From: Henriciella aquimarina
GTDB lineage: Bacteria; Pseudomonadota; Alphaproteobacteria; Caulobacterales; Hyphomonadaceae
Reading direction: 5' to 3'
NCBI RefSeq assembly: GCF_002088975.1
Contig: NZ_NCST01000103.1
Coordinates: 62,001 to 126,000, forward strand
DNA length: 64,000 nt
Positions 5,671 through 32,568 of the stretch are shown piece by piece; positions within the stretch are counted from its first letter, which is position 1, and the number at the start of each line of letters is the position of its first letter. A model generated the notes under the pieces. The model saw only the letters and a list, made by a program, of their open reading frames with translations, did no database searches and had not been told where the DNA came from. Both the position numbers and the translations under genes were made by a program.

Positions 5671-5762
5671 AGCCTGCCGAATCTGTAGCTTTTACGGCGC
5701 CCTGTCATTTCCGATAGCTTGTGCATGAGGCCGGCTTTGGGAACCCTCTAAGGCATATTCGA

Positions 5763-5781: not shown

Positions 5782-5801
5782 CGGCCTTTAGGGAGGAAAA
5801 C

Positions 5802-15967: not shown

Positions 15968-18826
15968 ATGGCAATCACGGAGTCCATCCGGGGCAGGCTG
16001 CTTGCAGGCGCTGCGACTGGGGCCATGCTGATGTTCGCTGCGCCCGCGCAAGCGCAAGAGACTGACACCGAAACAACCGCGCAAACGCCCGCCACCGTCG
16101 ATGAAGAGACTGGCCAGGAAGATGGCACGGCGCGCCTCGATGTGGTGACCGTGTCGGGTATTCGCGGCTCGATCCGAAATTCCCTGAATGTCAAAAAGAA
16201 CGAGACCTCCATCGTCGAGGCGATTTCCGCGGAAGACATCGGCAAGCTGCCGGATCTGTCCATTGCCGACTCGCTGGCACGTTTGCCGGGTGTCACTGCG
16301 CAGCGTGTGCGCGGCCGTTCTCAGCAGATCTCCATCCGTGGCCTTGGTCCGGACTTCTCGCTGGCGCTTCTGAATGGCCGCGAGGTCGTTTCCGCCGGCA
16401 ACAATCGCGGCGTCGAGTTCGACCAGTTCCCCTCCGAACTCATCGCCCAGGGCGTGGTCTACAAGTCGCCGGATGCGACACTCGCCGCGACCGGCATTGC
16501 CGGGGCGGTCGATCTGCGCACGGTGCGCCCGCTCGATTATTCGAACCGTCAGTTCAACCTGTCCGGCAAATATGTGCTTAACGACAACGGCCAACTCAAT
16601 CCCGATTTCGACGATGACGGCTATCGCTATTTCGCTTCCTATATCGATCAGAACGAGGCCGGCACGATTGGCTGGTCGCTGGGCGCCACCATCCAGTCCA
16701 ACCCGACGCAATTCTATTCGCGCGAACTGAAGACCAATCAGGGGCAGACCTCCTCGACCGAGCCGGGCGGTGGAACGATCTATCCATCGGACAATCCGCG
16801 CACCGGCGTTTCCTCGCGTGAGTTCGAGCGCACATCGGTTGCCGGCACGCTGCAATTCGAGCCGAGCGGCCGCTGGCAGACGGTGGTCGATGGTTTCTAT
16901 ACGGATACGGAAGACTCCGGCATCTTCCGCGGTGTCGAAACGCCGATTGCCTCGTGGAGCGGGACGAGTGCGGATGTCACGCCGGGCAATGGCGCTTTCG
17001 CCGACTCGGCCACCTACGCGCCGGTCAATCCGATCCTGCGCACCGATACCGAGGGCAGCCAGGCGGAGATCCTCGCGCTCGGCATCAACTCCACCTACGC
17101 CGTGACCGAGCGTCTGAGCATCACGGGCGATGTCAGCTATTCGAGCCTCGACCGCTCCGACGTCGACTACGAGTCCTATGCAGGCACCGGCTTTGCCGGC
17201 TCCGGCCCGACCGACACGCTGCGCTTCACCTTCCCGGACAATGGCGAGTACAGTATTGGCCACGATCTTGACTATACCGATCCGGGCACGGTGGTGCTGA
17301 CCGATCCGGGCGGCTGGGGACAGGTCGGCTTCCTGCGTGAGACCGACATCGAGGACGAGCTTTCCCAGATCCGTCTGGAGGCGGAATATGCCCTCGATGT
17401 GCCCTTCATTTCAGGCCTGACGGGCGGGGTGCTCAAGACTGACCGCGAGAAGACGTTCAACGACAACCCCTTCTATCTGCGCGAGTCCGAAGCCTTCACC
17501 GATGGTGAGGTGACGATCCCCGATGGCTCCGTCATCGGCCAGACCGATAGCGGCGATATCGGCCTCGACATCATTGCCTACAATCCGGGGCCTCTGCTGA
17601 GCGACGGCACCTATTTCGTGCAGGATTGCGAAGAGGTCGCCGGCTGTGTTGAAACCGAATGGGTCGTCGAGGAAGACGTCACGACCTGGTACGGCATGGC
17701 GACCATCGACAGCGAGATTGGCGACATGCCCCTGCGCGGCAATGTCGGCTTCCAATATGTCGACACGACGCAGACTTCGACTGGCACGCTCGCCGGTAGC
17801 GGGACCCAGACCATCGAGGAAGACTATACGAACTTCCTGCCGAGCCTGAACCTGTCGCTTGAGGTGATGCCGGATACGCTGGTCCGTTTTGCCGCGGCGA
17901 AGACGCTGACGCGCGCCCGGCTCGACCAGCTCGCGGCGAACCAGAGTTTCAACCGCAACACACTGGTCTGCCCGGACGGCAATGGCGATGGCGTGCCCGA
18001 TGCGGTGGTCGATGCCGATCCGCCGGAGCGGACCTGTTCGACCCTGGAGGGCGGCAACCCCTTCCTGCGGCCCTACAAGTCGACCCAGTTCGACATCGCT
18101 TTCGAGAAGTATTTCGGTGAGGCCAGTGCCCTGTCGGTCGCTTTCTTCCGCAAAGAGTTCGACGACTGGGTGCTCGACCGCTCTGTCATCGTCGACGGTA
18201 CCCAATATTATGAGGCGAGCGGGCTTGGCGATTTCGCGGCAAATAATCCCGAGGTCGTGCCGACGCGTCTTAGCGGGCCGGTCAACTTTGCGGATGGCTC
18301 GATGGAAGGCTATGAGCTGACCGCGCGGATCAGCCTGGATGATGTGGTCGAGATGCCCCCGGCGCTGGAAGGTTTCGGTTTCGGCGCATCCTACACCTTT
18401 ACCGAGAATGGGTTGGAGGACGAGACCGGCAATGAGATCACCATTCCGGGGCAGTCGGACATCGTCTGGTCGGGGGATGTCTATTACGAGAACCATGGCT
18501 GGCAGGCGAAGTTGAGCGCGCGTCGCCGCTCCGGCTTCCTCTCGGAAATCCTGCAGTTCGACGGCACGCTGAGCGGCGCGCGGGCGATGGACGAAACCAT
18601 TCTCGACGCCCAGATCGGTTATGAGTGGGGTAGCGGTCCGCTGGAAGGCTTTGCGGTCAATCTCGAAGTCTACAACATCACCGACGAGCCGTTCCGCACC
18701 GAGAACCAGCTCTTCTATGATCCGGCCGTTGCCGGCGGGCCTGATGTTCCGACATCGGAGTATTTTGTCAGCCGTCACGAGCTTTACGGCACGACCTATA
18801 ACTTCACGATCTCAAAATCCTTCTAG
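15968..18826 (+). CDS. TonB-dependent receptor, Xanthomonas/Caulobacter type (likely maltodextrin receptor)
   Basis: This outer-membrane receptor of 952 aa probably imports starch oligosaccharides. GGGAGG lies 6 bases before ATG 15968; a longer frame upstream has no coding character. The Sec signal ends APAQA (residue 29). The TonB-box region is VVTVSGIRGSIRNSLNVKKN, then a plug with EDIGKLPDLSIADSLARLPG and RGLGPDFSLALLNGREV, the signature of the TonB-Xanth-Caul family. The barrel ends with Phe (FTISKSF). Its substrate is inferred from the adjacent amylase, glucosidase and MFS genes. A halogenase-like gene follows after a terminator. Confidence 0.93.
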   Translation: MAITESIRGRLLAGAATGAMLMFAAPAQAQETDTETTAQTPATVDEETGQEDGTARLDVVTVSGIRGSIRNSLNVKKNETSIVEAISAEDIGKLPDLSIADSLARLPGVTAQRVRGRSQQISIRGLGPDFSLALLNGREVVSAGNNRGVEFDQFPSELIAQGVVYKSPDATLAATGIAGAVDLRTVRPLDYSNRQFNLSGKYVLNDNGQLNPDFDDDGYRYFASYIDQNEAGTIGWSLGATIQSNPTQFYSRELKTNQGQTSSTEPGGGTIYPSDNPRTGVSSREFERTSVAGTLQFEPSGRWQTVVDGFYTDTEDSGIFRGVETPIASWSGTSADVTPGNGAFADSATYAPVNPILRTDTEGSQAEILALGINSTYAVTERLSITGDVSYSSLDRSDVDYESYAGTGFAGSGPTDTLRFTFPDNGEYSIGHDLDYTDPGTVVLTDPGGWGQVGFLRETDIEDELSQIRLEAEYALDVPFISGLTGGVLKTDREKTFNDNPFYLRESEAFTDGEVTIPDGSVIGQTDSGDIGLDIIAYNPGPLLSDGTYFVQDCEEVAGCVETEWVVEEDVTTWYGMATIDSEIGDMPLRGNVGFQYVDTTQTSTGTLAGSGTQTIEEDYTNFLPSLNLSLEVMPDTLVRFAAAKTLTRARLDQLAANQSFNRNTLVCPDGNGDGVPDAVVDADPPERTCSTLEGGNPFLRPYKSTQFDIAFEKYFGEASALSVAFFRKEFDDWVLDRSVIVDGTQYYEASGLGDFAANNPEVVPTRLSGPVNFADGSMEGYELTARISLDDVVEMPPALEGFGFGASYTFTENGLEDETGNEITIPGQSDIVWSGDVYYENHGWQAKLSARRRSGFLSEILQFDGTLSGARAMDETILDAQIGYEWGSGPLEGFAVNLEVYNITDEPFRTENQLFYDPAVAGGPDVPTSEYFVSRHELYGTTYNFTISKSF

Positions 18827-18855: not shown

Positions 18856-18885
18856 GGCCCGCCCCGACCAGGGCGGGCCTTTTTT
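18856..18885 (+). terminator. Intrinsic terminator after the TonB receptor gene
   Basis: GGCCCGCCC (18856-18864) pairs with GGGCGGGCC (18871-18879) around CGACCA, followed by six T residues. It separates the receptor from the halogenase-like gene at 18936, which therefore needs read-through or its own promoter. Confidence 0.9.
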
Positions 18886-18935: not shown

Positions 18936-20444
18936 ATGGCGCGGCCGCAGATCGAAAAGGTGGTAATTGCCGGTGGCGGCACGGCGGGCTGGATCACGGC
19001 GGCTGCCCTGCGCAAGCTGCTGCCCGCCCATCTCGACATCACGCTGATCGAGTCCGAGCAGATTGGTACGGTCGGGGTGGGGGAAGCGACCATCCCGCAG
19101 ATCCGCCGATTGAACGCCATTCTCGGCCTCGACGAGGATGCCTTTGTCCGGGACACCCGGGCGAGCTTCAAGCTCGGCATCGAATTCTCCGACTGGGGGC
19201 ATATCGGCGAGCGCTATCTCCACACTTTCGGCGATCCGGGCATCAACCTTTCCAGTCTGCAGTTTCATCATTACTGGCTGCGCGCGCGGGCCGAAGGCAG
19301 CGCCGCCAGCCTGTGGGACTATTCCCTGCATCATCGTGTCGCCTATGCGAACAAGTTCGGGCGGATGGAACGGGTCGGTAATACGCCGATGACGGGGCTT
19401 GCCTATGCCTTTCATTTCGATGCCACGCTCTATGCCGCCTGCCTGAGACGCCATGCCGAGGCCGCTGGCGTGAGGCGTGTCGAAGGGCGGATCACCGGCA
19501 CCGATCTGAACGGCGAAACGGGTTTTATCGAGGCGGTGCAGCTGGAAAACGGTGAGCGTGTCGCGGGCGAACTCTTCATCGATTGTTCCGGTTTTCGCGG
19601 CCTGTTGATCGAGGGCGCGCTCGGTGTCGGCTATCGTGACTGGTCCCACTGGCTGCCCTGCAACCGGGCGCTGGCCGTGCCCTCCGAACAGACCGAGCCG
19701 CTTTTGCCCTACACCAGGGCGATGGCGCGCGAGGCCGGTTGGCAGTGGCGCATTCCACTGCAGCACCGCACCGGCAATGGCCACGTCTTCTGCGACGCGT
19801 TTATGGACGAGACGCGCGCGGCAGACCTGTTGCTCGCCAATCTCGACGGCCGACCGCTCGCCGACCCGAAGCCCTTGCGCTTCACGACCGGGCGGCGCGA
19901 GCGGTTCTGGGCGAAGAATTGTGTTTCCATCGGGCTATCGAGTGGTTTTCTGGAGCCGCTTGAATCGACCTCGATTCATCTCATCCAGTCGAATGTCTCG
20001 CGTCTCGTCGAGCTTTTCCCGACTCGCGATTTCGAAGCTGCCAATATCGAGGAGTATAATCGCCGGGTCGGCCACGAATATGAGCTGATCCGCGATTTCC
20101 TGATCCTGCATTATCACCGCACCGACCGCGATGACTCCGAGTTCTGGCGCTATTGCGCGACTATGGATGTGCCGGACAGCCTGAAGGCGAAAATGGCTCT
20201 CTTCGAGGGCGGCGGGCACCTGTTCAAGGATCCGGAAGACCTTTTCCGCGAGTCGAGCTGGGTGCAGGTCATGGTGGGGCAGGGGCTGATGCCGAAAGGC
20301 TATCACGCCATGGCAGACCGTCTGTCATCGGAGCAATTAGCGCGTTTCCTCTCCGACGTGCAGGCGATCATCGCCAAGGCCGAAGCCCAGCTGCCGGGGC
20401 ACACCGACTTCCTGCGTTCTCACTGCAAGGCTGATTTGCAATAG
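18936..20444 (+). CDS. Tryptophan-halogenase family flavoprotein (first of two)
   Basis: This 502-aa protein belongs to the flavin-dependent tryptophan halogenase family. It has the FAD motif GGGTAGW (13-19). Lys79 in SFKLGIEF takes the position of the catalytic lysine of PrnA. WQWRIP is at 269-274, and the LEPLEST segment has Glu343-Ser344-Thr345, matching the PrnA Glu346 halide-site region. All hallmark residues are therefore kept. There is no biosynthetic cluster nearby; the gene lies in a starch locus behind a TonB receptor, so the substrate is unlikely to be free tryptophan. AAGGG lies just before the ATG. Its 3' end overlaps the second paralog on the opposite strand by 25 bases. Confidence 0.9.
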   Translation: MARPQIEKVVIAGGGTAGWITAAALRKLLPAHLDITLIESEQIGTVGVGEATIPQIRRLNAILGLDEDAFVRDTRASFKLGIEFSDWGHIGERYLHTFGDPGINLSSLQFHHYWLRARAEGSAASLWDYSLHHRVAYANKFGRMERVGNTPMTGLAYAFHFDATLYAACLRRHAEAAGVRRVEGRITGTDLNGETGFIEAVQLENGERVAGELFIDCSGFRGLLIEGALGVGYRDWSHWLPCNRALAVPSEQTEPLLPYTRAMAREAGWQWRIPLQHRTGNGHVFCDAFMDETRAADLLLANLDGRPLADPKPLRFTTGRRERFWAKNCVSIGLSSGFLEPLESTSIHLIQSNVSRLVELFPTRDFEAANIEEYNRRVGHEYELIRDFLILHYHRTDRDDSEFWRYCATMDVPDSLKAKMALFEGGGHLFKDPEDLFRESSWVQVMVGQGLMPKGYHAMADRLSSEQLARFLSDVQAIIAKAEAQLPGHTDFLRSHCKADLQ

Positions 20445-21928
20445 CGCTCGATATAGGCGCGATGGTCCGGCATGGCGGCGACGGCGTCTGTCATCGCCGC
20501 GCGGACCTGTGCCATGCGCTCTTCGACCGGGACTTGGGGGCGAAGGCCCGAGAGCGCCGGGGCGCGCTCCGGGACAATGCCCTGGCCGAGATAGACCGCG
20601 ATCCAGCTCGGATTGGCGAAAAGTTCGCGCTCATCGGACACGATCATGCCGTGGCGGCGGAAATGCTCGATCTTGTAGGCGAGCCGGTCGGGTATCTCCA
20701 TCTCCGCACAATGGCGCCAGAAGCCGTCGCCACGCCGCTCGGTTGCCTTGTAGTGCAGGATGAGAAAGTCCCGAATGCGCTCATATTCGGCCATAGTCAG
20801 CGCATTGTATTCTTCCGCCAGAAGCGGCGACATTTGCCTGTCCGGGAAGAGGGCGAGAAGGCGCATGATGCCATACTGGATGAGATGCAGGCTGGTCGAT
20901 TCAAGTGGCTCCATGAAGCCGGCCGACAGGCCGATGGCAACGACATTCCGGTTCCAGAATTTCCGCCGGCGCCCCGTCTGAAAGCGCAGATGGCGCGGGT
21001 CGGCCAGTGGCTTGCCCTCGATCGAGCGCAGAAGCTCGGCTTCCGCATCGTCTGCTGAAAGATGGTCGGCACAATAGACATAGCCGTTGCCGACGCGGTG
21101 CTGCAGCGGGATGCGCCATTGCCAGCCCGCTGTCTTCGCTGTCGATTGTGTATAGGGCAGGAGCGATCCACTGCCCGTGCAGGCGACGGCAACGGCGCGG
21201 TTGCAGGGCAGCCAGTGCGACCAGTCCTCGAAGCCTGTCTTCAGTGTCTTCTCGATGAGCAGGCCGAGGAAGCCCGTGCAGTCGATGAAGAGGTCCCCCT
21301 CGAAGGTTCGCCCGTCTTCCAATGTTACTGATCGAACGAACCCGCTTTCGCTGTCCTGATACACGTCCACCACGCGACCTTCGGTGCGGACGACGCCGCG
21401 CTGTTCGGCATGGCCACGCAGAAAACGGGCATAGAGGGTAGCATCAAAGTGATAGGCATAATCGAAGGTCGACTGGATGAGACGTTTGTCCCGCGCCGGA
21501 TGCTCGAACTTTCCGGCTTTCGCCGCCGCCCAGGCCATCGTGTAGTCATCAACGGTGGTTTCGCGTCCGGCGATCAGTTCCCGGATGAGGTATTGGTAGA
21601 AGGGCACCTCGTCGAACTCGGCGCCATACTGGCCGAAGGGGTGGGAGTAGGTGTGCCCCTCCCGGGTCCAGTTCCTGAACTCAATGCCGAGCTTGAACGT
21701 GCCGCTGGTCTCGCGAAGGAAGGTGGCCTCGTCGATGCCGAGGCGGGCATTGAAGTATTTCACGGGCGGAATGGTGGCTTCGCCAACGCCGATCGTGCCG
21801 ATCGCCTCGGACTCGATCAGCGTGATCCGGCAGGCGCCCTGCGTGGCATTGGCAAGCGCAGCCGCCGTCATCCAGCCGGCCGAGCCGCCGCCGACAATGA
21901 CCACATCGCGCACAGGATCCCCTGTCAT
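20420..21928 (-). CDS. Tryptophan-halogenase family flavoprotein (second, convergent paralog)
   Basis: This paralog is also exactly 502 aa from ATG 21928, which has GGAG 8 bases upstream. It keeps GGGSAGW (13-19), the catalytic-position Lys79 in TFKLGIEF, GWQWRIPLQHR and the MEPLESTSLHLIQ halide-site block. The two proteins align along their whole length and end similarly (CKADLQ against CKSALQ). Inverted tandem duplication followed by divergence is the simplest origin. The start faces the DUF6445-like gene across an 83-base promoter gap. Function in sugar use is unknown; it could modify a receptor, a glycan or a small molecule. Confidence 0.9.
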   Translation of the reverse strand: MTGDPVRDVVIVGGGSAGWMTAAALANATQGACRITLIESEAIGTIGVGEATIPPVKYFNARLGIDEATFLRETSGTFKLGIEFRNWTREGHTYSHPFGQYGAEFDEVPFYQYLIRELIAGRETTVDDYTMAWAAAKAGKFEHPARDKRLIQSTFDYAYHFDATLYARFLRGHAEQRGVVRTEGRVVDVYQDSESGFVRSVTLEDGRTFEGDLFIDCTGFLGLLIEKTLKTGFEDWSHWLPCNRAVAVACTGSGSLLPYTQSTAKTAGWQWRIPLQHRVGNGYVYCADHLSADDAEAELLRSIEGKPLADPRHLRFQTGRRRKFWNRNVVAIGLSAGFMEPLESTSLHLIQYGIMRLLALFPDRQMSPLLAEEYNALTMAEYERIRDFLILHYKATERRGDGFWRHCAEMEIPDRLAYKIEHFRRHGMIVSDERELFANPSWIAVYLGQGIVPERAPALSGLRPQVPVEERMAQVRAAMTDAVAAMPDHRAYIERYCKSALQ

Positions 21929-22011
21929 GACGGGTCTCCTGCAGTTGCTGCGGTGCAATGTCGCAGCTTTCCTGATATGAAACCTGCAAGAGAGCGGGGA
22001 AACGCGAAAGA

Positions 22012-22719
22012 ATGACGGACAACGCTGACCAGCTTGGCCAGACGCTGCCTTATCATGTCCTCTATCCGGGCGACGAAGGCGAGCCCGTCGTCGTCATAGA
22101 CGACTTCTTCTCCAGTCCGGATGCGCTCCAGGAACAGGCGGCTCGGCAGGATTATGCGCCGGGCGGGCGTCACTATCCAGGCCATCGGGCGCCGGCCCCG
22201 TCGGGTTATCTCGCTGAACGGATCGACCTGTTGCAGGATATCCTGACCGATGTTTTCGACATGGAGGCAGGCGCGAGGCTTGTGGAATGCAACTTCTCCA
22301 GGGTGACAACGCCGCCGGATGAACTGACGCCGATCCAGTGCCTGCCGCACTTTGACGGGACGAATCCCGGTTTCGTCGCCCTGCTGCACTATCTGAGCGG
22401 ACCGGAGTATGGCGGGACCAGCTTCTACCGGCATTGCTCCACGGGGTTCGAGACGATCAGTGCTGACCGGTTCGACATCTATGACCGCACGCTTCAGGCC
22501 GAGGCCAACGCCATTGGCCTTCCGCCGCAACGCTATTTTTCCGGGTCCACCGACCAGTTCGAGCAGATCGGGCAAGTCGAGGCACGGGTCAATCGCATGG
22601 TGCTCTATCGTGGCCTCTGCCTGCATTCCGGAGATATTCCGAGGGCGGACTATATTGGCGAGCCGGACGAGGAGGCGCGCCTGACGGTGAACACCTTTCT
22701 TGTCGCGCGAAATCGATAG
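22012..22719 (+). CDS. DUF6445-like protein, possible Fe(II)/2-oxoglutarate oxygenase fold
   Basis: The 235-aa protein resembles proteins annotated as DUF6445, which often accompany TonB receptors and halogenase-like genes. A 2OG-oxygenase-like residue set can be read: His113-x-Asp115 in LPHFDG, a distal His205 in LCLHSGD, and Arg223 in ARLTVNTF to hold 2-oxoglutarate. YLSGPEYGGTSFYRH near 130-143 also fits a double-stranded beta-helix oxygenase. Catalysis is inference. It is divergent from the second halogenase-like gene and convergent with the ROK kinase, with a 5-base gap. Confidence 0.75.
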   Translation: MTDNADQLGQTLPYHVLYPGDEGEPVVVIDDFFSSPDALQEQAARQDYAPGGRHYPGHRAPAPSGYLAERIDLLQDILTDVFDMEAGARLVECNFSRVTTPPDELTPIQCLPHFDGTNPGFVALLHYLSGPEYGGTSFYRHCSTGFETISADRFDIYDRTLQAEANAIGLPPQRYFSGSTDQFEQIGQVEARVNRMVLYRGLCLHSGDIPRADYIGEPDEEARLTVNTFLVARNR

Positions 22720-22724: not shown

Positions 22725-23603
22725 TCATCTCTCGACAGCCTCACGTGCGGCCTGCTGAGCCAGCAGCAAGGCCCCGGTGACGCCTGCTGCCTCGCCGAGG
22801 CCTGGCGGGACGATATAATCGGAGAGATCGCCCGATAGTGCCCCACGACGAACATAGCCGGCCAGGCGGTCCTGCGTTTGTTCGCGCAGCGCCTCGATCA
22901 GGCCGGGTGTCTTCATCACGCCGCCGCCGACAATGATGCGGCCTGGCATGTGCGCGAGGATGATGGTGAGCGCCAGCTGCGAGAGATAACTTGCCTCCAG
23001 CGCGACGGCGCCTTCACCGAGGTGCGACAGCGGCTCGCCCCAGCGCGCCTGGATAGCCGGGCCGCAGGCCAGCCCCTCAAGACAGTCGGCATGGAAGGGG
23101 CAGTGGCCGCCATAGGTGTCGTCCGGGTCGCGGCGAACCGGGATATGGCCCATCTCGTAATGGCCTGTGCCGTTGCGCACGCGGCCGTCATTCACGATGC
23201 CCGCGCCGATGCCGGTCCCGACCGTGACATAGGCGAGCGTCTTCTGATGGCGCCCGGCGCCATGGGCGTATTCGCCGAGGCAGGCGCCAGAGACATCGCT
23301 TTCGATCTTGAAGGGCACCGTGAAACCCGAAAAGGCCTTGAACCAGGAAGCGCCCGTCCAGCCGGGCTTCGGCGTATTCAGAACCTGGCCATAGGTCTTC
23401 GAGCGCTTGTCGATGTCGACCGGCCCGAAAGCCGCCACGCCAATGGCGCGGACGGAGCGCTGGGCTTTCAGGAAATCGCGGATGTGGCCGAACGTCTCTT
23501 CCGGCGTGGTGGTCGGGATCTCGATGCGCTCGCGGATGTGGGCGGGGTGCTCCGCCACGGCGCAGACCATCCGGGTTCCGCCAGCCTCGATCCCTGCGAG
23601 CAT
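22725..23603 (-). CDS. ROK-family sugar kinase (fructokinase/glucokinase-like)
   Basis: This 292-aa cytoplasmic kinase phosphorylates a hexose with ATP. The N-terminal phosphate loop is GIEAGGTR (4-11). The catalytic Asp103 lies in ESDVSGACLGE. The ROK zinc site shows His153, Cys168, His171 and Cys174 in the GHCPFHADCLEG region. The Zn pattern and length fit the ScrK/Mak fructokinase branch, but in this locus glucose from starch is the likely substrate. It is the last gene of the minus-strand run GH97-MFS-GH13-ROK, 14 bases after the amylase stop. The start has only a weak ribosome-binding site. Confidence 0.88.
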   Translation of the reverse strand: MLAGIEAGGTRMVCAVAEHPAHIRERIEIPTTTPEETFGHIRDFLKAQRSVRAIGVAAFGPVDIDKRSKTYGQVLNTPKPGWTGASWFKAFSGFTVPFKIESDVSGACLGEYAHGAGRHQKTLAYVTVGTGIGAGIVNDGRVRNGTGHYEMGHIPVRRDPDDTYGGHCPFHADCLEGLACGPAIQARWGEPLSHLGEGAVALEASYLSQLALTIILAHMPGRIIVGGGVMKTPGLIEALREQTQDRLAGYVRRGALSGDLSDYIVPPGLGEAAGVTGALLLAQQAAREAVER

Positions 23604-23617: not shown

Positions 23618-24997
23618 TTATCCACCCTGCTTCGTGAACACCCTGTAGCTCCAGGCGGGCAGGTCAAGCGCGGTCTTTGCGTCGATTGTGAGAGGTTTGC
23701 CCGAAAAGTATTCGGTATACGCGCCCGCATAAGGCCCATCGGTGAAGCGCACGGTTTGTCTTTCTGGTGAGAGGTTGAGCACGGCGAAGACCCCGCCATT
23801 GCTGTCGAACCGGGTGAAGGAAAGCACGGCGTCTGGCGCTGTGTTCACCACCGGCACCATCCGCGCCCCGGCGGCCCCATTGTGGAGGGCTGAGGTCTCG
23901 GTTTTCAGCTCGATAAGAGACTTGAAAAGATCGCCCACCGGAGAATCGCGCCACGCAATCGGGTCTTTCTCGAAGAATTCGAGTTCCTTCGTATTGCCCG
24001 CTTCCTGGCCATTATAGATGAGCGGCAGGCCCTCGCCGACAAAGGAGAGGACGATGGCCGCTTCATATGCGTCGCCATAGATGTCGGGGGCCGCGCCGTC
24101 CCAGGCATTCTGGTCATGGTTGGAGGTATAGGTCATGCGATAGGCGTCGTGCGGCCAGGCGCCGTCCGTCTCGGCATAGTATCCGAAAAAGGCATTGGCG
24201 CCGGCTTCGCCCTCGGCAATGGCCTGCATCGTATTCTTCCAGTCCCATGCGTAAGAGGCGTCGAAAGCGCGGGCATGGACGTCGCGCTGGTCGAATTCAG
24301 CCAGCATGAAGACCGGCTTGATGGTGTCGAGCTCGGCGCGCACCGTCTCCCAGAAGTCGAGTGGGACATAGCCCGCGACATCGGCGCGGTAGCCATCGAT
24401 GCCGGCTTCCTCGACCCAATAGCGCAGCGCCCCGGCCATGTATTCGCGGACCTCCGGGCTGGAATAGTCGAGATCGATGATGTCCGACCAGTCCCACCAG
24501 CGTGTCGGCATGAAGTCGCCATCCCAGTCGGTCTCGTACCAGTCGGGGTGTTCGGTCACGAGCGGATTGTCCCAGGCGGTATGGTTGGCGACCCAGTCGA
24601 GAATGACGTGCATGTCTCTTTCATGGGCGGCATCGACGAAGGATTTGAGGTCATCCAGCGTGCCGAATTCCGGGTTCACGCCATAATAGTCCTTCACCGA
24701 ATAGGGCGAGCCGAGGCTGCCCTTGCGGTTTGTCTTGCCGATCGGGTGGATGGGCATCAGCCAGAGAATGTCGACACCGAGCGCGTCGAGCCGGTCGAGT
24801 TCTTTCTTGGCCGCCGCGAAAGTGCCTTCGGGTGTGAACTGGCGGGTATTGATCTGGTAGAGAACAGCGTCCTTCGCCCAGTCCGGATGGTCGAGCTTCA
24901 CATAAGGTTCGGGCTGCCACTTCGTGTCGGTGTCCTGCGCGAGCGCCGGGCCGGACATAAGCGCCAGCGTGGCGAGGGTGGTGATCAGGGCTCTCAT
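23618..24997 (-). CDS. Exported GH13 alpha-amylase-family glycosidase
   Basis: This 459-aa enzyme hydrolyses alpha-1,4-glucans in the periplasm. The Sec signal is cut after ALA (residue 20). GH13 conserved regions are visible: DWVANHT (134-140), the nucleophile Asp206 in GYRADVAG, the acid/base Glu234 in MLAEFDQ, and His294-Asp295 in SNHDQN. The C-terminal beta-sandwich domain is short (about 385-459). Its start overlaps the MFS transporter stop by 4 bases (ATGA), so the two are translationally coupled. Endo or exo specificity is not readable from sequence. Confidence 0.92.
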   Translation of the reverse strand: MRALITTLATLALMSGPALAQDTDTKWQPEPYVKLDHPDWAKDAVLYQINTRQFTPEGTFAAAKKELDRLDALGVDILWLMPIHPIGKTNRKGSLGSPYSVKDYYGVNPEFGTLDDLKSFVDAAHERDMHVILDWVANHTAWDNPLVTEHPDWYETDWDGDFMPTRWWDWSDIIDLDYSSPEVREYMAGALRYWVEEAGIDGYRADVAGYVPLDFWETVRAELDTIKPVFMLAEFDQRDVHARAFDASYAWDWKNTMQAIAEGEAGANAFFGYYAETDGAWPHDAYRMTYTSNHDQNAWDGAAPDIYGDAYEAAIVLSFVGEGLPLIYNGQEAGNTKELEFFEKDPIAWRDSPVGDLFKSLIELKTETSALHNGAAGARMVPVVNTAPDAVLSFTRFDSNGGVFAVLNLSPERQTVRFTDGPYAGAYTEYFSGKPLTIDAKTALDLPAWSYRVFTKQGG

Positions 24998-26577
24998 GTC
25001 TCGGCTCCTATGGGCTCAGGCGAGGCCTCTTCCGCGGTGTCGGAGACAAAGAGGACGGCGATAGCGGCCAGGGCGAAGGAGGCGGCCGCGATGGCAAAGG
25101 CCCAGATCGGTTCATTGCCGAAAAAGGTGCGGAGCAGGAAGCCGAGCAGGGTGGCCGCGACGAGCTGCGGCACCACGATGAAGATGTTGAAGATGCCCAT
25201 ATAGACGCCCATTTTCCGCGCCGGGACCGAGCCGGCGAGGATGGCATAGGGCACCGAGACAATCGCCGCCCAGGCCACGCCGACCCCCACCATGGGCAGG
25301 ACCAGCGGGGCCGGATCGTCGATCAGGATCATGCCTGCAAAACCAAGCGCACCGAGGCTTATGCAGATCGCATGCAGCTTGCGCCGGTCGACCTGCGCGG
25401 CGAGCCAGATGATGGCGAGCGCGGCGGCGGCAGCCACACCGTTGCGCACCGCACCAAGCAGCGCCCACCAGTTGCCGGCTTCCTGATAGAGCGCGGTTGC
25501 CGCATCGCTGGTGCCGTAGTGATGCTCGGCCACAGCGGGCGTGCCGTAGATCCACATGGCGAACAGGCCGAACCAGGAGAAGAACTGCACCACGGCGAGC
25601 TGTCGCATTGTTTTCGGCATTCGGAAGAGGTCGCCGACGACTTCCATGAAGCCGTTCTCGCTCTTTCCGCTTGAGCGTATGGTGCCGGCGACGAGTTGGA
25701 TCACGCCGAAACCGGCGACCAGCGCGGCAAAGACATAGAGGTCCTGCTTGAACTCGACATCGCCCAGCCAGGTGAGCCAGCCGGGCCGTGGGTCCATCCG
25801 TCCGGCATGGAAAAAGGCGGCAAGTAGCAGACCGACCGCGAGCCAGATCAGCCCCCCTGTATAGAAAGCCCGGGCTGAGCGCGGCGGGGGCGTATCTTCG
25901 GTCTCGTCACCAAGGCCGAGCGCTTCGCGCCGGGCGGCCTCGAAGCGCTCCATCTGTTCGGGCGAATATTCCGGCGTGGTCAGCACGGTCACCAGGACGG
26001 CGAGGAAGAGCGCGGCCCCGCCTGCATAGAAGGCGAGATGCACCGTCATCGGGATCTCGCCTTCGGGCGCGGTGTTCGAGACGCCGAACTCGGTCATCAG
26101 CCAGGGCAGGGCGCCGGCAATGACGGCCCCGAGGCCGATGAAGAAGCTCTGCAAGGCGTAGCCGGTGGTGCGCTGCTGGTCGGGCAGCATGTCGCCGACA
26201 AAGGCGCGCGTCGGCTCCATGGTGATGTTCAGCGAGGCGTCCATGATCCAGAGCGTTCCGGCCGCGACCCAGAGCGCCGGAGAGTTCGGCATCACGAACA
26301 GGGCCAGGCTCGCCAGGACCGCACCGACCAGAAAATAGGGCCGACGGCGGCCGAGCCGTCCCCATGTCTTGTCGGAGAAATGTCCGACAATGGGCTGGAC
26401 GATCAGCCCGGTCAGCGGGGCCGCGATCCAGAGGATGGGCAAGGAATCGATGCTGGCGCCAAGCGTCTGGAAGATGCGGCTGACATTGCCATTTTGCAGG
26501 TCGAAGCCGATCTGGATGCCGAGAAATCCGAAACACATGTTCCAGATCTGGCCGAAGCTCAGCTTGGGTTTCTGCAT
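24994..26577 (-). CDS. MFS sugar transporter (GPH/SLC45-like, probable maltose/maltodextrin importer)
   Basis: This is an inner-membrane 12-helix transporter of 527 aa. ATG 26577 has GGAGG 8 bases upstream and is preferred to a start 15 codons earlier. The loop 2-3 signature GHFSDKTWGRLGRRRPYF (65-82) marks the glycoside/SLC45-type branch. A cytoplasmic loop of charged residues sits in the middle near 205-235. The gene lies between the periplasmic GH97 and GH13 genes on one transcript, so import of maltose or short maltodextrins is the reasonable reading. Similar genes act as maltose transporters in Caulobacter-type loci. Confidence 0.87.
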   Translation of the reverse strand: MQKPKLSFGQIWNMCFGFLGIQIGFDLQNGNVSRIFQTLGASIDSLPILWIAAPLTGLIVQPIVGHFSDKTWGRLGRRRPYFLVGAVLASLALFVMPNSPALWVAAGTLWIMDASLNITMEPTRAFVGDMLPDQQRTTGYALQSFFIGLGAVIAGALPWLMTEFGVSNTAPEGEIPMTVHLAFYAGGAALFLAVLVTVLTTPEYSPEQMERFEAARREALGLGDETEDTPPPRSARAFYTGGLIWLAVGLLLAAFFHAGRMDPRPGWLTWLGDVEFKQDLYVFAALVAGFGVIQLVAGTIRSSGKSENGFMEVVGDLFRMPKTMRQLAVVQFFSWFGLFAMWIYGTPAVAEHHYGTSDAATALYQEAGNWWALLGAVRNGVAAAAALAIIWLAAQVDRRKLHAICISLGALGFAGMILIDDPAPLVLPMVGVGVAWAAIVSVPYAILAGSVPARKMGVYMGIFNIFIVVPQLVAATLLGFLLRTFFGNEPIWAFAIAAASFALAAIAVLFVSDTAEEASPEPIGAET

Positions 26578-26635
26578 CGCTTTTACCTCCCCGGCCATCT
26601 TCGTATCGTTCAGCAGGCGCAATCTCTTCTGCCGG

Positions 26636-28744
26636 CTATCGCCCGGCCACCAGCCGGACCGCTGCCCCTCCGGATGACGCGAGGGGCAGTTCCAGCGTGT
26701 CCGGGGCCGTCACGGTGCGACTTTCAATGGTGATGGCATAAGGGTTGGTCTGCCAATCGGCGTCCTCGCCGTCGCGATAGATCTCAGCGGTGTAGCTGCG
26801 GCCGTCATCAAGGAAATCGAGGGGGACGGACACTGTACGCGCGGTCTCGTCCGTCAGCGCGCCGACATACCAGTCATCGGATTTCCTGTCCTTGCGGGCC
26901 TGGACGATGAAATCTCCCACCTCGCCATCGAGCGCGATGGAGGTCTCCCAGTCGGCCGGCACATCCTTGATGAACTGGAAAGGCTCCGGATTGGCTTCGT
27001 AATTCTCCGGCAGGTCTGCGGCCATCTGCACCGGGCTGTAGATCACGACATATAGTGCGAGCTGTTTTGCGAGCGTCGTCTGGATACGGTTCTCGTTGTC
27101 CTCGCCATTCGGCATCAGGTCGAAGATGCCGGGCGTGAAGTCCATCGGGCCGGCGAGCAGGCGGGTATAGGGCAGGATGGCAGTGTGCTCCGGCGGATTG
27201 GGTGGGCTGCCCCAGGCATTGAATTCCATGCCGCGGGCGCCTTCGCGGCTGACGGCATTCGGGTAGGTGCGGCGAAGGCCAGTGTCCTTCACCGGTTCGT
27301 GCGCATTGATGGCGAGGCCGTATTCATGCGCCTTCTTCAGCACATTAAGGTCATGGACAACCCGCTCCTGGCCGGCATGCCAGCCATAGCGGCGGAAGCC
27401 CTCTTCATCTTCAAGCACGAGGTCGCTCGCATCGGCGACATAGCCGGTCTTCACCGTGGAATAGCCATTGTCCCGATAGAGCTGGAAGGCCGCATCGAGC
27501 TGGCTTTCATAGTTCGGTAGATTGGCGGCGGTTTCGTGGTGGCCGATCAGTTTCACGCCTTTGTTGGCGGCGTAGTCCGACAAGGCTTCGATGTCGAAAT
27601 CCGGGTAGGGTTCGGCGAAGCGGAACTTGTCGCCATTGTTGAACCAGTCCCCGTCCCAGCCAATGTTCCAACCCTCGACCAGCACGCCGGAAAAGCCGTT
27701 CTCGGCCGCAAAGTCGATATAGCGCTTCGTGTTCCCGGTTGTTGCGCCATGGTCTGGTCCCGAGCCCCAAGTGTATTTGTTGATGTGCATGCCCCACCAG
27801 ATGCCGACATATTTTCCGGGTTCGAAATAGGAGACATCGCCGAGCTGGTTCGGCGCGTTGAGGTTCAGATAGATGTCGGCGCCATTGACGAGCCCGGCTG
27901 CGGTGTCGGCGATCTGGATGACGCGCCAGGGCGTCTTGAAGGCGCCGTCGATCTTGACCTTGGTGCCGTCATGGCGTGGGGCGAGTTCGGCCTCGAGGAC
28001 GCCCGCACGGCGCTGGTCCAGCCACATGCCGGCATAGTCGACTAGAGCGGCCTCGTGGATGGCGAGATAGGGGCCGTCGGCGCCTTCCACGTCGTATTTC
28101 AGCGTATAGGGTGTGTGGACGCGGTAGATGTCGCGCACCGGGGTCGTCTTGTAGATGTATTCATAGCGGTTGTATTCGCCGGCCGGTGTCCACCACGATG
28201 TGGCGTTCGGCTCGACGGCGAATTCCGTGATCTCATCGACCAGCGCACGCTCGCCCGTATCCGGCACTTCATAGCGGAAGGCGACGCCCGCATCGAAAAC
28301 GCGGGCGCGGACGGTAAAGCTGCGCTCCGGGCCATCATCGGTCGATGTAAAGCGTGCCGTGATCTCGTTGTGAAGATCGCGCACAGTGCGCTTCTCGCCC
28401 CAGGGCTGCTGCCAGGTCTCGTCGTGGCTGTCGGCTGCGGTCTCTGTGATTTCGAAACCCCGGTCGAGATTCGCGCCGCTGGCAAAACGTAGGCCGAGTT
28501 TCGATTGGGCGATGAGCGGTTTGCCATCGCGGGTGACGGTATAGACGGGCTGGCCATTGGCTGTGGCAAGGCTGATTTCGGTGCGCCCATCGGGGGAGGT
28601 TGCGTCAACGCTGGCCGAGCTGGCGGGCATGCTTTCTTGCGCCACTGCGACGGAGGGGCTCAGAGTCGCCGGGCCAATGCCGCCGAGCCCTGAGAATCCG
28701 GCAAAAACGAGGGTGAGGGCCTTTAAGGCCTTGGCCTGTGTCAT
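26636..28744 (-). CDS. Exported GH97 alpha-glucosidase (SusB-like)
   Basis: GH97 enzymes release glucose (or galactose) from non-reducing ends in the periplasm. This protein is 702 aa from ATG 28744, which has GGAGG 7 bases upstream. The signal ends AVA/Q near residue 36. The N-terminal beta-sandwich is about 45-290, and the (beta/alpha)8 barrel contains LVEGWNIGWDGDW, GHHETAANLPNYE and INAHEPVKDTGLRRTYPN. The Glu-rich motifs agree with the inverting SusB branch, supporting alpha-glucosidase activity. It leads the minus-strand operon and shares a promoter region with the divergent second amylase. Confidence 0.92.
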   Translation of the reverse strand: MTQAKALKALTLVFAGFSGLGGIGPATLSPSVAVAQESMPASSASVDATSPDGRTEISLATANGQPVYTVTRDGKPLIAQSKLGLRFASGANLDRGFEITETAADSHDETWQQPWGEKRTVRDLHNEITARFTSTDDGPERSFTVRARVFDAGVAFRYEVPDTGERALVDEITEFAVEPNATSWWTPAGEYNRYEYIYKTTPVRDIYRVHTPYTLKYDVEGADGPYLAIHEAALVDYAGMWLDQRRAGVLEAELAPRHDGTKVKIDGAFKTPWRVIQIADTAAGLVNGADIYLNLNAPNQLGDVSYFEPGKYVGIWWGMHINKYTWGSGPDHGATTGNTKRYIDFAAENGFSGVLVEGWNIGWDGDWFNNGDKFRFAEPYPDFDIEALSDYAANKGVKLIGHHETAANLPNYESQLDAAFQLYRDNGYSTVKTGYVADASDLVLEDEEGFRRYGWHAGQERVVHDLNVLKKAHEYGLAINAHEPVKDTGLRRTYPNAVSREGARGMEFNAWGSPPNPPEHTAILPYTRLLAGPMDFTPGIFDLMPNGEDNENRIQTTLAKQLALYVVIYSPVQMAADLPENYEANPEPFQFIKDVPADWETSIALDGEVGDFIVQARKDRKSDDWYVGALTDETARTVSVPLDFLDDGRSYTAEIYRDGEDADWQTNPYAITIESRTVTAPDTLELPLASSGGAAVRLVAGR

Positions 28745-28792
28745 GGCGGATCCTCCCAATGGTCCGGTCTATTCTTTGGCGGGAAGAGTGCG

Positions 28793-29003: not shown

Positions 29004-30878
29004 ATGCGCCTGAATGCCGCTCCACTGCGTGGCCTGATGCTGGCTTCAAGCGTGCTCGCCGCGGCCTGCGCGAGTCAGGCGCAAGGCGCAGACACGCCGT
29101 CCCCGCCGCCCATCTCCGACCGGCTGCCGCAGGACGAGATCATCTATTTCGTCATGCCGGACCGTTTCGAGAATGGCGATCCGTCGAATGACAAGGGCGG
29201 CCTTTCAGGTGGACGGCTCAAGACCGGCTTCGACCCGACCGACAATGGCTTCTATCATGGTGGTGATCTGAAAGGGCTGACCGACAGGCTGGACTATATC
29301 GAGGCACTGGGCGCAACCGCCATCTGGCTGACGCCGATCTTCGAGAACAAGCCCGTTCAGGGGCCGCCCGGCCAGGAGTCGGCCGCCTATCATGGCTACT
29401 GGATCACCGATTACCTCAACGTCGATCCACATCTCGGTACGCGGGAAGACTTCAAGGCCTTTGTCGATGCCGCCCACGCACGTGGCATGAAGGTCTATAT
29501 GGACATCATCACCAATCATTCCGCCGACGTCATCCAGTACCGCGAATGCGCGGCGACGGCGGCGCCGGGCGATGCGACCGAGGAAACCTGTCCCTATCGC
29601 AGCATCGGCGACTATCCCTGGACGACGCGCGGCGACGTAACGGGCGAGGCGATCAATGCCGGTTTTGCCGGGACCGATCCGGCCCATCACACACATGAGA
29701 ATTTCGAAGAGCTGGCCGAGCCGGGCTGGGCTTATGAGCCGTTCGTTCCGGAGGGGGAGAAGACGAGCAAAAACCCGGCCTGGCTGAACGATCCGCTCTA
29801 TTATCACAATCGGGGCAATTCCGCCTTCGAGGGCGAAAGCTCCCGCATGGGCGATTTTGGCGGGCTGGACGATCTGATGACGGAAGACCCGCGCGTGGTC
29901 GCGGGCTTTATCGACATCTACAAGCAGTGGATCACCGATTTTCGGGTCGATGGCTTCCGCATCGATACGGCCAAACATGTAAATCCGGAGTTCTGGCAAG
30001 CCTTTGCGCCCGCCATGAAGGCGCATGCCGAAAGCCTTGGCATCGAGCACTTCCATATCTTTGGCGAAGCCTATGAGTTCGATGCCGGTCGGCTATCTGC
30101 CTATACGACCCGGGACGGTCTACCGTCCGTGCTTGATTTCGCCTTCGAAGGTGTGGTGCGCGACGTCGTCGTGAACGGGGCGCCGGCCCGCCGGCTGGAA
30201 GAGCTGTTTGCCGTCGATCACTCCTATGCCGATGGTCTCGAGACAGCCGCCATCCTGCCGACCTTCCTCGGCAATCACGATATGGGCCGGTTTGCGGGTT
30301 TCCTGCGTGAGGCGCATCCGGAAATGAACGATGCGGAGATGCTGGAGCGGCTGACGCTCGCCCACGCCATGCTGATGTTTTCGCGCGGCGTGCCGACCAT
30401 CTATTATGGCGACGAACAGGGCTTCGTGTCCGATGGCGGGGATCGCGGCGCGCGTGAAGACATGTTCGAAAGCCAGGTGCCGGACTATCTCGACAATGAT
30501 CTTGTCGGGACCGACGCCACAACCGCGGATGTCAATTTCGATACCGGCCATCCGCTCTTCGAAGCCATCTCGCAGATGGCGGCCATTCGTCAGGCCCATC
30601 CGGCGCTGCGGCGCGGCCATCAGCTTATCCGTCATTCTGACAAGGCGGGCGGTCTCTTCGTCATGTCGCGCTTCGACGCCGCCCGCAGCCGGGAATATTT
30701 GATCGCGTTCAATGCGGGCAATGACACGCGCGATTTCAATAGCCTTGTCGATGGCCGGGCAAAGCGCTGGACGGCCGTGCACGGAGACTGTGCGGCGCAG
30801 GTGCAAGCCCCCGGCAGCTATGCGATTTCCATTGCGCCGCGGGATTTTCTCATCTGCTACAGTGATCTTGAGGAGTAG
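29004..30878 (+). CDS. Exported GH13 alpha-amylase/cyclomaltodextrinase-type enzyme, probable lipoprotein
   Basis: This 624-aa GH13 enzyme acts outside the inner membrane. GGGAGGAG precedes the ATG. The signal ends LAAAC with Cys22, a loose lipobox, so membrane anchoring is likely but not certain. GH13 motifs are DIITNHS (167-173), nucleophile Asp321 in VDGFRIDTAKH, acid/base Glu355 in IFGEAYE, and His425-Asp426 in LGNHDMGR. The long insert between 176 and 300, with paired cysteines (Cys182 and Cys196), resembles large extracellular amylases. It is followed 4 bases later by the cytoplasmic glucosidase and LacI gene in the same direction. Confidence 0.92.
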   Translation: MRLNAAPLRGLMLASSVLAAACASQAQGADTPSPPPISDRLPQDEIIYFVMPDRFENGDPSNDKGGLSGGRLKTGFDPTDNGFYHGGDLKGLTDRLDYIEALGATAIWLTPIFENKPVQGPPGQESAAYHGYWITDYLNVDPHLGTREDFKAFVDAAHARGMKVYMDIITNHSADVIQYRECAATAAPGDATEETCPYRSIGDYPWTTRGDVTGEAINAGFAGTDPAHHTHENFEELAEPGWAYEPFVPEGEKTSKNPAWLNDPLYYHNRGNSAFEGESSRMGDFGGLDDLMTEDPRVVAGFIDIYKQWITDFRVDGFRIDTAKHVNPEFWQAFAPAMKAHAESLGIEHFHIFGEAYEFDAGRLSAYTTRDGLPSVLDFAFEGVVRDVVVNGAPARRLEELFAVDHSYADGLETAAILPTFLGNHDMGRFAGFLREAHPEMNDAEMLERLTLAHAMLMFSRGVPTIYYGDEQGFVSDGGDRGAREDMFESQVPDYLDNDLVGTDATTADVNFDTGHPLFEAISQMAAIRQAHPALRRGHQLIRHSDKAGGLFVMSRFDAARSREYLIAFNAGNDTRDFNSLVDGRAKRWTAVHGDCAAQVQAPGSYAISIAPRDFLICYSDLEE

Positions 30879-30882
30879 AGTT

Positions 30883-32568
30883 GTGGACGACTGCATGACC
30901 AACAGGCCAGCCAGCGCCGCCAATGCGACCCCCTCGCCGCAGCCGGGGGCAGACGCGCCGTGGTGGAAAGGCGCGACGATCTATCAGGTCTATCCGCGCA
31001 GTTTTCTCGACACCACAGGCGACGGCATCGGGGACCTTCAGGGCATCATCAAGGGTCTGGATTATATCGCCTCGCTTGGTGTCGATGCGGTCTGGCTGTC
31101 GCCCTTCTTCGCCTCGCCGATGAAGGATTATGGTTATGACGTCGCCGACTATTGCGACGTCGATCCCATGTTCGGCACGCTCGCCGATTTCGACCAGCTG
31201 ATCGAAAAGGCACATCGTCTCGGCCTGAAGGTCATCATCGACCAGGTCTATTCCCACACCTCCGACCAGCATGCCTGGTTTGCCGAGAGCCGTGAGGACA
31301 AGATCAATCCGAAAGCCGACTGGTATGTCTGGGCCGATCCGAAGCCGGATGGCTCGCCGCCCAATAATTGGCAGTCGGTCTTCGGCGGGCCGTCCTGGGA
31401 GTGGGACGCCCGGCGCCAGCAATACTACTTCCACAATTTCCTCGTCTCCCAGCCGGACCTGAACGTCCATAATCCGGAGGTGCAGGATGCGCTGCTGGCG
31501 GCGGCGACATTCTGGCTCGACCGGGGCGTTGACGGGTTTCGACTCGATGCGATTAATTTCGCCATGCATGACCGCGAGCTGCGGGACAATCCGCCCTCGG
31601 GCCTGCCGATGGAGAAGGTCACGCGCCCCTTCGACATGCAGCGCCATGTTTACAGCATGTCCCAGCCGGAAGTGCCGGCCTTCCTGGAGCGCATCCGCAC
31701 GCTGCTCGACCGCTATGACGGCAGGTTCACGGTCGCCGAGATTGGCGGGCCGGACCCGATCGGCGAGATGAAGGCTTTCACCGAAGGCCAGGGCCGGCTG
31801 AATTCCGCCTACAGTTTCGACTTCCTCTATGCCCAGAGCTTATCGCCGGCGCGCATTGTGCGCTCGCTCAGCGAATGGGGCGGTGTGGCGAATGAGGGCT
31901 GGCCGAGCTGGGCCTTTTCGAACCATGACGCCCCCCGCGCGGTGACTCGCTGGGCGGCGCCGGAGGACCGCAAGCAGGCTGCCGACATGCTGCTGCTGCT
32001 ACTGCTGGGGCTCCGCGGCAATGCCTTCCTCTATCAGGGCGAGGAGCTTGGTCTGCCGCAGGCGAAAGTGCCGTTCGACTACCTCAAGGACCCGGAAGCC
32101 ATTGCCAACTGGCCGCGCACGCTGGGCCGGGATGGCGCGCGCACGCCGATCCCGTGGGTGGCCGATGCGACCAATTCGGGCTTCTCGACGGGCGAGCCCT
32201 GGCTGCCGGTCGATCCGCTCCACGATGCCCTCTCAGCCGACCGTCAGGAGGCGGACCCGGTGTCGACGCTGAATGTCGCGCGCTCGCTCATCAAGCTTCG
32301 CCAGTCCCTTCCAGCCCTCAGGCTTGGGACGCTGCATTTCCATGAGGCGCCCGAGGGGATCCTCTTTTTTCAGCGCGAACATGAAGGAAAGAGCGTCGCC
32401 TGCGTCTTCAATATAGGAGCTGAGCCTGTTGAGTTTGTGCCAGCTGCTGCGAACCAGATGCAGGTTCTTGCAAACGAGACGGGGGCTGTTAACGCTTCCG
32501 TTTCACTGCCAAGGCAAATTGAACCCTGGTCCGGTTACTGGGCACTGCTCGACGAGGCAGGGGACTGA
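30883..32568 (+). CDS. Cytoplasmic GH13 alpha-glucosidase
   Basis: This 561-aa enzyme without a signal peptide hydrolyses imported maltose or short maltodextrins to glucose. GTG 30883 is chosen because AGGAG lies 7 bases upstream; ATG 30895 would leave 19 bases. Motifs are the YPRSFLDTTGDGIGDLQGI opening (37-55), Asp222 in VDGFRLDAINF, Glu286 in TVAEIGG and Asp349 in SNHDAPR. This is the GH13_23-like alpha-glucosidase type known from Halomonas and Caulobacter relatives. It is coupled to the amylase before it and the LacI gene after it. Confidence 0.93.
   Translation: MDDCMTNRPASAANATPSPQPGADAPWWKGATIYQVYPRSFLDTTGDGIGDLQGIIKGLDYIASLGVDAVWLSPFFASPMKDYGYDVADYCDVDPMFGTLADFDQLIEKAHRLGLKVIIDQVYSHTSDQHAWFAESREDKINPKADWYVWADPKPDGSPPNNWQSVFGGPSWEWDARRQQYYFHNFLVSQPDLNVHNPEVQDALLAAATFWLDRGVDGFRLDAINFAMHDRELRDNPPSGLPMEKVTRPFDMQRHVYSMSQPEVPAFLERIRTLLDRYDGRFTVAEIGGPDPIGEMKAFTEGQGRLNSAYSFDFLYAQSLSPARIVRSLSEWGGVANEGWPSWAFSNHDAPRAVTRWAAPEDRKQAADMLLLLLLGLRGNAFLYQGEELGLPQAKVPFDYLKDPEAIANWPRTLGRDGARTPIPWVADATNSGFSTGEPWLPVDPLHDALSADRQEADPVSTLNVARSLIKLRQSLPALRLGTLHFHEAPEGILFFQREHEGKSVACVFNIGAEPVEFVPAAANQMQVLANETGAVNASVSLPRQIEPWSGYWALLDEAGD

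Follow-up and report, generated by a model that had tools for sequence, protein, structure and literature searches.

A 64,000-nucleotide stretch of Henriciella aquimarina DNA (the window, part of contig C99 of a 4.34-Mb genome in 132 contigs) carries two genes for flavin-dependent halogenases (FDHs), FDH1 and FDH2, beside the gene for a TonB-dependent receptor in a starch utilization locus. We found that FDHs of this kind are associated with such receptors far beyond chance. The enzymes belong to a known kind; what seems new, as far as the open-access literature was covered, is a receptor-dedicated module with accessory genes of the 2-oxoglutarate (2OG) oxygenase type and, in some loci, a degenerate FDH. 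As a tentative explanation, we suggest that the TonB receptor of this carbohydrate-utilization (CUT) locus is served by a dedicated set of two FDHs and a 2OG oxygenase, whose substrate would be a polypeptide, most likely the receptor prior to export.

Pairing of halogenase genes with TonB-dependent receptors

The clustering counts were obtained for 18 FDH-rich genomes, picked by hand from a set of 120 of which 69 contain FDHs. Their 126 FDH genes form 64 clusters. A receptor of the TIGR01782 family was located within 3 kb of 53 of these clusters, compared with 1.8 expected under random placement, and the 53 receptor-linked clusters use 53 distinct receptors. Such a pairing of each receptor with its own FDH set favors a target specific to the locus. 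In one of the 11 unlinked clusters (G046 C30:128174-131121, locus L188), the receptor is cut by a contig end. A search from the receptor side yielded 57 matches resembling receptor P0004 in 47 of the 120 genomes. For 27 of the 30 best-scoring of these 57, the window included, an FDH was found inside the 1.5-kb flanks. The three exceptions are L188, with its contig end; a receptor of G007 (L210) whose FDH is 2.4 kb off, which slightly strengthens the pairing; and a receptor of G106 (L212) with the nearest FDH approximately 63 kb away. An FDH (E ≤ 1e-60) was present in 45 of the 47 genomes with a P0004-like receptor versus 24 of the 73 others. The initial annotation of this DNA had stated that halogenase genes recur beside TonB receptors, and the counts from both sides bear this out.

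The pairing extends beyond the FDH-rich genomes. A locus set was assembled from the window and 80 named loci retrieved by FDH similarity. By this measure, the nearest named relatives of the window are Henriciella metagenome-assembled genomes, 73% identical across FDH1. Spanning Alpha-, Beta-, and Gammaproteobacteria, 76 of these 81 loci contain a receptor-family gene; the remaining five comprise three on contigs shorter than 8 kb (L045, L072, and L090) and two on longer ones (L062 and L079). The 72 linked receptors fall into one clade of 52 and a second of 19, with one elsewhere; linked row L111 (15128-18310), outside both clades, was omitted from the xylan set. In the first, starch-type clade, a neighbor of glycoside hydrolase family GH13 or GH97 was found in 37 of 51 loci. 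The second, xylan-type clade had GH13 or GH97 in none of 19 loci, and GH3, GH5, GH9, GH10, GH43, or GH115 in 16 of 19. The hydrolase sets near FDH-receptor pairs include GH13/GH97, GH10/43/115, and GH3/5/9 (starch, xylan, and cellulose types, respectively), and the receptor pairing is independent of the type of polysaccharide enzyme nearby.

Distance matrices of FDHs and receptors were correlated (Mantel r of 0.595, n = 71, reached in 0 of 999 permutations). The partial correlation was 0.42 given LacI (34 loci), 0.90 given GH97 (10 loci), and 0.91 given DUF6445 (12 loci). Part of this relationship can be accounted for by joint inheritance of the locus. No description of the FDH-receptor association or of the module was found in the part of the open-access literature covered, where no search was aimed at degenerate halogenases.

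The two halogenases and their accessory genes

FDH1 (18936 to 20444, plus strand) and FDH2 (20420 to 21928, minus strand, with its ATG at 21928) are convergent, and their 3' ends overlap by 25 bp. Each encodes 502 amino acids (aa), and the two proteins are 48% identical. Both match PF04820 along nearly the whole profile of 458 positions (FDH1, E = 2.2e-190, 633.8 bits, 1 to 456; FDH2, E = 1.3e-189, 631.3 bits, 1 to 452), and a genome-wide search with this profile returned these two genes only. The closest PDB sequences are 9luq (Pseudoalteromonas), 6y1w (Xcc4156), and 6frl (BrvH) for FDH1 and 9luq, 6frl, and 6y1w for FDH2. Lys79, the WQWRIP form of the WxWxIP motif (W269-x-W271-x-I273-P274), and E343-S344-T345 occur in both proteins, and the FAD-binding GxGxxG motif reads GGGTAG and GGGSAG, respectively. 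The two intact 502-aa FDHs of the initial annotation were therefore recovered with the coordinates, lengths, and catalytic residues it had claimed. In an alignment of 152 of the 154 family members of the 81 loci (at least 400 aa, window included), each catalytic column was 92 to 99% conserved.

The motifs ATIPQI/HTFGD and ATIPPV/HPFGQ of the window FDHs fit the ATxPxx and HxFGx patterns of the BrvH and Xcc rows in a table of PMC8269204. In the portion of that table available, group B rows carry HPFEQ or HPFER, and group C rows other than BrvH and Xcc vary. A YHG string, part of the group B free-Trp motif Trp4 (YYHG...YS) in that source, was absent from FDH1 and FDH2; the comparison covered the group B form of the motif. 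BrvH and Xcc4156, group C indole halogenases, share family and catalytic residues with the window FDHs, and the BrvH gene is likewise described as having a second FDH gene next to it. The word TonB is absent from the main texts of the BrvH and Xcc4156 papers. The window pair differs in being convergent and in being accompanied, within a starch locus, by a protein of predicted 2OG-oxygenase fold.

Nei-Gojobori ratios of nonsynonymous to synonymous substitution (dN/dS) were about 0.08 for each FDH against G046 and 0.15 to 0.18 against G060, compared with 0.12 for the ROK kinase gene and 0.22 to 0.25 for DUF6445; all are rough, because dS is near or above 1. The ratios suggest purifying selection on both FDHs. 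Judged from their residues, FDH1 and FDH2 are BrvH-type (group C) FDHs with an intact catalytic set and predicted activity. A PADLOC search for anti-phage defense returned no match for FDH1, FDH2, or DUF6445.

The third gene, at 22012 to 22719 on the plus strand, encodes a DUF6445 protein of 235 aa (PF20043, E = 5.7e-71) and is the only DUF6445 match of the genome. All 44 aligned members of the family have H113-x-D115, H205, and R223, as expected from the His-x-Asp...His...Arg set reported initially; we take H113, D115, and H205 to bind iron and R223 to bind 2OG. Structure prediction yielded a double-stranded beta-helix of the 2OG-Fe(II) oxygenase type, in line with the earlier assignment, and DUF6445 is a probable 2OG-Fe(II) oxygenase according to this model. 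Among the closest folds, protein hydroxylases (OGFOD1 and PHD2) tied with small-molecule oxygenases. OGFOD1, PHD2, bacterial P4H-type hydroxylases, and HygX-type small-molecule oxygenases have the beta-helix fold and the HxD...H...R set in common with DUF6445; they differ in being only about 10 to 18% identical to it, and PF20043 is annotated as of unknown function.

DUF6445 (E < 1e-50) was found in 36 of the 120 genomes, and 34 of these 36 contain an FDH, versus 69 of 120 overall (Fisher P = 1.6e-8). In the 18 FDH-rich genomes, three accessory families were enriched within 3 kb of FDH clusters: SapC (15 of 37 genes; 0.40 expected by chance), Cupin_8 (14 of 25; 0.28 expected), which we take to be a JmjC-like cupin, and high-scoring DUF6445 (5 of 11; 0.11 expected). 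All three are optional. A distance of at most 1.5 kb between high-scoring DUF6445 and an FDH was seen in 10 of 30 loci, and DUF6445 occurs without any PF04820 match (E ≤ 1e-15) in the genomes G036 and G041. These counts rule out DUF6445 as an obligatory FDH partner, and from the neighborhood of receptor, halogenase, and DUF6445 envisaged in the initial annotation, the receptor-halogenase pairing stands and the fixed trio does not. Within 8 kb of the 64 clusters, Cupin_8 occurred at 20 and DUF6445 at 6, never together, suggesting that the two occupy a similar slot. Strict alternation holds for these clusters and is broken elsewhere by L111, which has both, and L016, where they are neighbors; the shared slot is the one idea that these exceptions weaken. 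An alternative arrangement of the module, receptor-SapC-Cupin_8-FDH, was observed at G064:C1:611539-617819 and G042:C1:1296388-1302635. Beside DUF6445 in L151 and L152 (G036 and G041) lies a gene whose N-terminus, inspected by eye, resembles what is presumably an RNA 2',3'-cyclic phosphodiesterase/ligase.

Candidate substrates and alternative explanations

According to the proposed mechanism, the FDHs and the 2OG enzyme, at whose N-termini no obvious signal peptide was seen by eye, would act in the cytoplasm. From FADH2, O2, and halide, the FDHs would generate HOBr or HOCl, which would reach the conserved Lys, as described for relatives in the literature available. Wide active sites such as those known for BrvH and Xcc4156 may take an indole or another aromatic side chain of a polypeptide, and the cognate receptor before export would be the best single candidate for the target. 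The 2OG enzyme would make a second oxidative change. Such modification would serve to adjust how the receptor binds its ligand or is assembled. The available text of the BrvH and Xcc4156 papers supports such a mechanism: both enzymes have open active sites, brominate indole or indoles in vitro, prefer bromide, and do not accept free Trp. A peptide substrate was proposed there and the native substrate declared unknown, in agreement with the initial annotation. Further support is provided by QhpG, described as hydroxylating a Trp of a protein substrate, and by the protein hydroxylases among the fold neighbors of DUF6445, tied as these are with small-molecule oxygenases.

It should be noted that several observations weigh against the receptor as the target. 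FDHs are carried by some receptors only: for 81 of the 134 receptors counted in the 18 genomes, the surrounding 3 kb contained no FDH. At 35 of the 64 FDH clusters, none of the three accessory families DUF6445, Cupin_8, and SapC occurred within 8 kb. Starch-type loci of G027 and G047, genomes with no PF04820 match at E ≤ 1e-15, keep the receptor, two GH13 genes, LacI, GH97, and the major facilitator superfamily (MFS) transporter. The 72 linked receptors (at least 700 aa, of 79 family members) were aligned with those of 64 control loci, taken from FDH-less genomes apart from six further receptors of G000 and G046, and no residue tracked FDH presence in both clades. In this comparison, L148, whose linked receptor is truncated at the end of its contig, was counted as linked; L159, L160, and L123 were treated separately, being clade members from genomes without an FDH; and L146 (G046:C13) was counted among the controls, yet lies within 3 kb of an FDH cluster. 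The commonest Trp residues of the starch clade, W391, W511, and W626 (P0004 numbering), are kept in the FDH-less L159 and L160, and 11 of the 15 Trp columns held by at least half of the xylan clade are retained in the FDH-less L123 (G027). In addition, receptors with two FDHs have a mean of 10.3 Trp residues compared with 12.3 for those with one (n = 40); this negative correlation excludes a Trp number that rises with FDH number.

Of the columns at least 75% kept in the starch clade, only Y465 and D507 differ in both FDH-less receptors. At the column of position 267 in the L101 receptor, 18 of 19 xylan-clade receptors have a Trp and L123 has a Phe, which leaves slightly more room for a clade-specific target. 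The modified site could be a Trp particular to one clade, part of a variable loop, or a residue of another kind. The receptor-linked modification system suggested by the initial annotation was thus upheld in its link between FDH and receptor (53 of 64 clusters) and not in the receptor as the substrate, for which no residue was found to track in both clades.

The main alternative, which we consider somewhat unlikely, is that the FDH substrate is a small aromatic molecule or a peptide, imported through the receptor or signaling by it, the receptor being the transporter. The one-to-one pairing suits a ligand as well as a receptor target, the lack of a tracking residue in both clades is in its favor, and BrvH and the Xcc enzymes are reported to accept indole derivatives. 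However, the hydrolases suggest differing polysaccharides, so that no aromatic ligand shared by all these loci readily suggests itself. Pfam scans of 31 window open reading frames (ORFs) revealed neither nonribosomal peptide synthetase nor polyketide synthase domains, in line with the absence of both noted initially. Nor was a precursor resembling those of ribosomally synthesized and posttranslationally modified peptides detected, as no family of 18- to 89-aa ORFs occurred in at least 4 of the 81 loci, a search of low sensitivity for such short sequences.

It is decidedly doubtful that the FDH fold serves another oxidation in place of halogenation, a use also considered in the initial annotation, e.g., hydroxylation of a peptidyl aromatic residue as by QhpG, a peptidyl-Trp dihydroxylase with a halogenase-like fold. 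In the text available (PMC7876137), this FAD enzyme is encoded together with its protein substrate and a partner enzyme and acts on a Trp of the polypeptide; DUF6445, a partner with a predicted oxygenase fold, fits this pattern. QhpG and LodB are among the best NCBIfam matches of the window FDHs, far below the equivalog cutoffs (FDH1, 36.8 bits versus 240 for QhpG and 19 versus 400 for LodB; FDH2, 26.7 and 21 bits). The structure nearest to QhpG is reported to be that of CmlS, another branch; the window FDHs keep the halogenase Lys and Glu-Ser. Conservation of these residues weighs against another oxidation: of the 152 aligned FDHs, 144 retain Lys79, 142 retain E343, and 140 retain S344. In addition, the close relatives BrvH and Xcc4156 are brominating enzymes.

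A further alternative is that the FDHs contribute to the locus mainly in a structural or regulatory capacity, as subunits whose catalytic activity is of lesser importance. In 11 loci (L052, L070, L071, L080, L081, L083, L095, L101, L104, L105, and L107), the second gene of a three- or four-gene FDH operon encodes a degenerate FDH of full length (477 to 593 aa). The catalytic Lys is replaced in 8 of the 11, Glu-Ser and WxWxIP are lost in all, and GxGxxG is lost in 8; PF04820 still matched the four proteins searched (E = 2.7e-76 to 8.8e-88). The model of the L101 protein retains the halogenase fold, with a predicted local distance difference test (pLDDT) score of 86.7 and a BrvH match at E = 8.8e-44, although 7 of the 18 sequences in its alignment are intact FDHs, which may favor this fold. 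Rough dN/dS values are about 0.40 for the degenerate pair of L052 and L070 versus 0.21 for their intact first genes. Taken together, these features fit a noncatalytic subunit and hint at heteromeric complexes, but they may also reflect relaxed selection. As Lys, Glu, and Ser are present together in 139 of the 152 copies, including both window FDHs, a chiefly structural role of FDHs in general is quite improbable. Two of the 13 FDHs without the full set, in L097 and L099, differ by Ser to Ala alone and were not classed as degenerate. Separately, FDH-like stumps of 344 to 348 aa with a partial PF04820 match stand amid intact FDH genes at L103:8958-10004 and L108:8955-9989, and L076:9377-10483 is a third member of this family.

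Combining these elements, the more specific form of our proposal is a receptor-maturation system with one FDH set per receptor, in some loci heteromeric with a dead FDH subunit and with 2OG oxygenases as second enzymes, that would halogenate or hydroxylate the receptor polypeptide in the cytoplasm prior to export; in this full form, we hold it to be unlikely. PrnA/RebH-family enzymes are usually specialized-metabolite halogenases, but that ordinary enzymes of this sort stand beside the receptor by chance is most improbable given the 53 of 64 clusters near a receptor versus 1.8 expected, the lack of synthetase and synthase domains in the 31 window ORFs scanned, and the presence of both FDHs of the genome at this one locus.

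Organization of the starch locus and implications

From left to right, the locus consists of the receptor, a hairpin, FDH1, FDH2, DUF6445, ROK, GH13, MFS, GH97, two further GH13 genes, and LacI. The receptor of the Xanthomonas-Caulobacter type (15968 to 18826, plus strand) scored 511 bits with TIGR01782 against a cutoff of 310 and has Plug and beta-barrel domains. Its longest ORF begins at 15785; the likely start, placed by eye from the sequence, is the ATG at 15968, which precedes a signal-peptide-like stretch. Downstream of DUF6445, the minus strand carries genes for a ROK-family sugar kinase (22725 to 23603; PF00480; best NCBIfam match fructokinase ScrK, under its cutoff), a GH13 amylase-family enzyme (23618 to 24997; PF00128), an MFS sugar transporter (24994 to 26622; PF07690 and PF13347), and an enzyme of the alpha-glucosidase/galactosidase family GH97 (26636 to 28759; three GH97 Pfam domains). 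These are followed on the plus strand by a GH13 amylase-family enzyme (29004 to 30878; PF00128), a GH13 alpha-glucosidase-type enzyme (30712 to 32568; PF00128, 408 bits), and a LacI-type regulator (32584 to 33615; PF00356 and PF13377). The listed start of the ORF at 30712 overlaps the preceding gene, and the real one is probably further in.

Profile searches thus reproduced the neighbors listed in the initial annotation and added LacI. CUT loci of Xanthomonas and Caulobacter comprise a TonB receptor, degradative enzymes, an inner-membrane transporter, and a regulator, as described in the text available of Blanvillain et al. 2007 (PMC1790865). All four are shared by the window locus, which is a starch CUT locus. 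The main text of that paper does not contain the words halogenase or tryptophan, whereas the window locus includes the FDH pair and a 2OG-fold protein. The FDH-less starch loci L183 and L184 (G027 and G047) carry receptors of the clade to which the window receptor belongs, followed downstream by an MFS-like gene in place of an FDH. A second TonB receptor of the window (5721 to 8399, plus strand) is outside the starch locus.

The hairpin between receptor and FDH1 (18856 to 18879, plus strand) resembles an intrinsic terminator, with nine G-C pairs and a T-run. A terminator scan of the region detected 6 hairpin sites versus 6.9 expected in shuffles and is by itself no evidence. Under a stricter rule, a hairpin followed the receptor in 23 of 43 receptor-to-FDH gaps and 8 of 12 gaps from a receptor to another gene; the corresponding counts elsewhere were 0 of 37 FDH-to-FDH gaps and 7 of 195 gaps between two other genes. 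A variant with longer stretches gave 22 of 39 receptor-to-FDH gaps versus 19 of 390 in shuffles. In 17 of the 23 cases, the hairpin and T-run start 14 to 33 bases past the receptor stop codon, and the sequence varies. Because 8 of 12 gaps to other genes also have one, the hairpin belongs to the receptor and not to the FDH, and an FDH-specific attenuator is ruled out.

For group C halogenases such as BrvH and Xcc4156, structures and in vitro bromination are known and the natural substrate is not. Through the strong pairing with one class of carbohydrate receptors, the field of candidates shrinks from aromatic compounds at large to the receptor, its ligand, or a product of the locus, and FDH-less sister loci provide natural controls. 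In a Sphingomonas, one transposon insertion in a "tryptophan halogenase" (RS06730) is reported among colony-morphology genes in the text available of PMC11340318. If the receptor-maturation proposal is true, it would mean that an outer-membrane protein is modified by halogenation and would explain the purpose of BrvH-type halogenases. Protein halogenation would then, with the receptor as its target, be widespread in the nutrient uptake systems of Proteobacteria.

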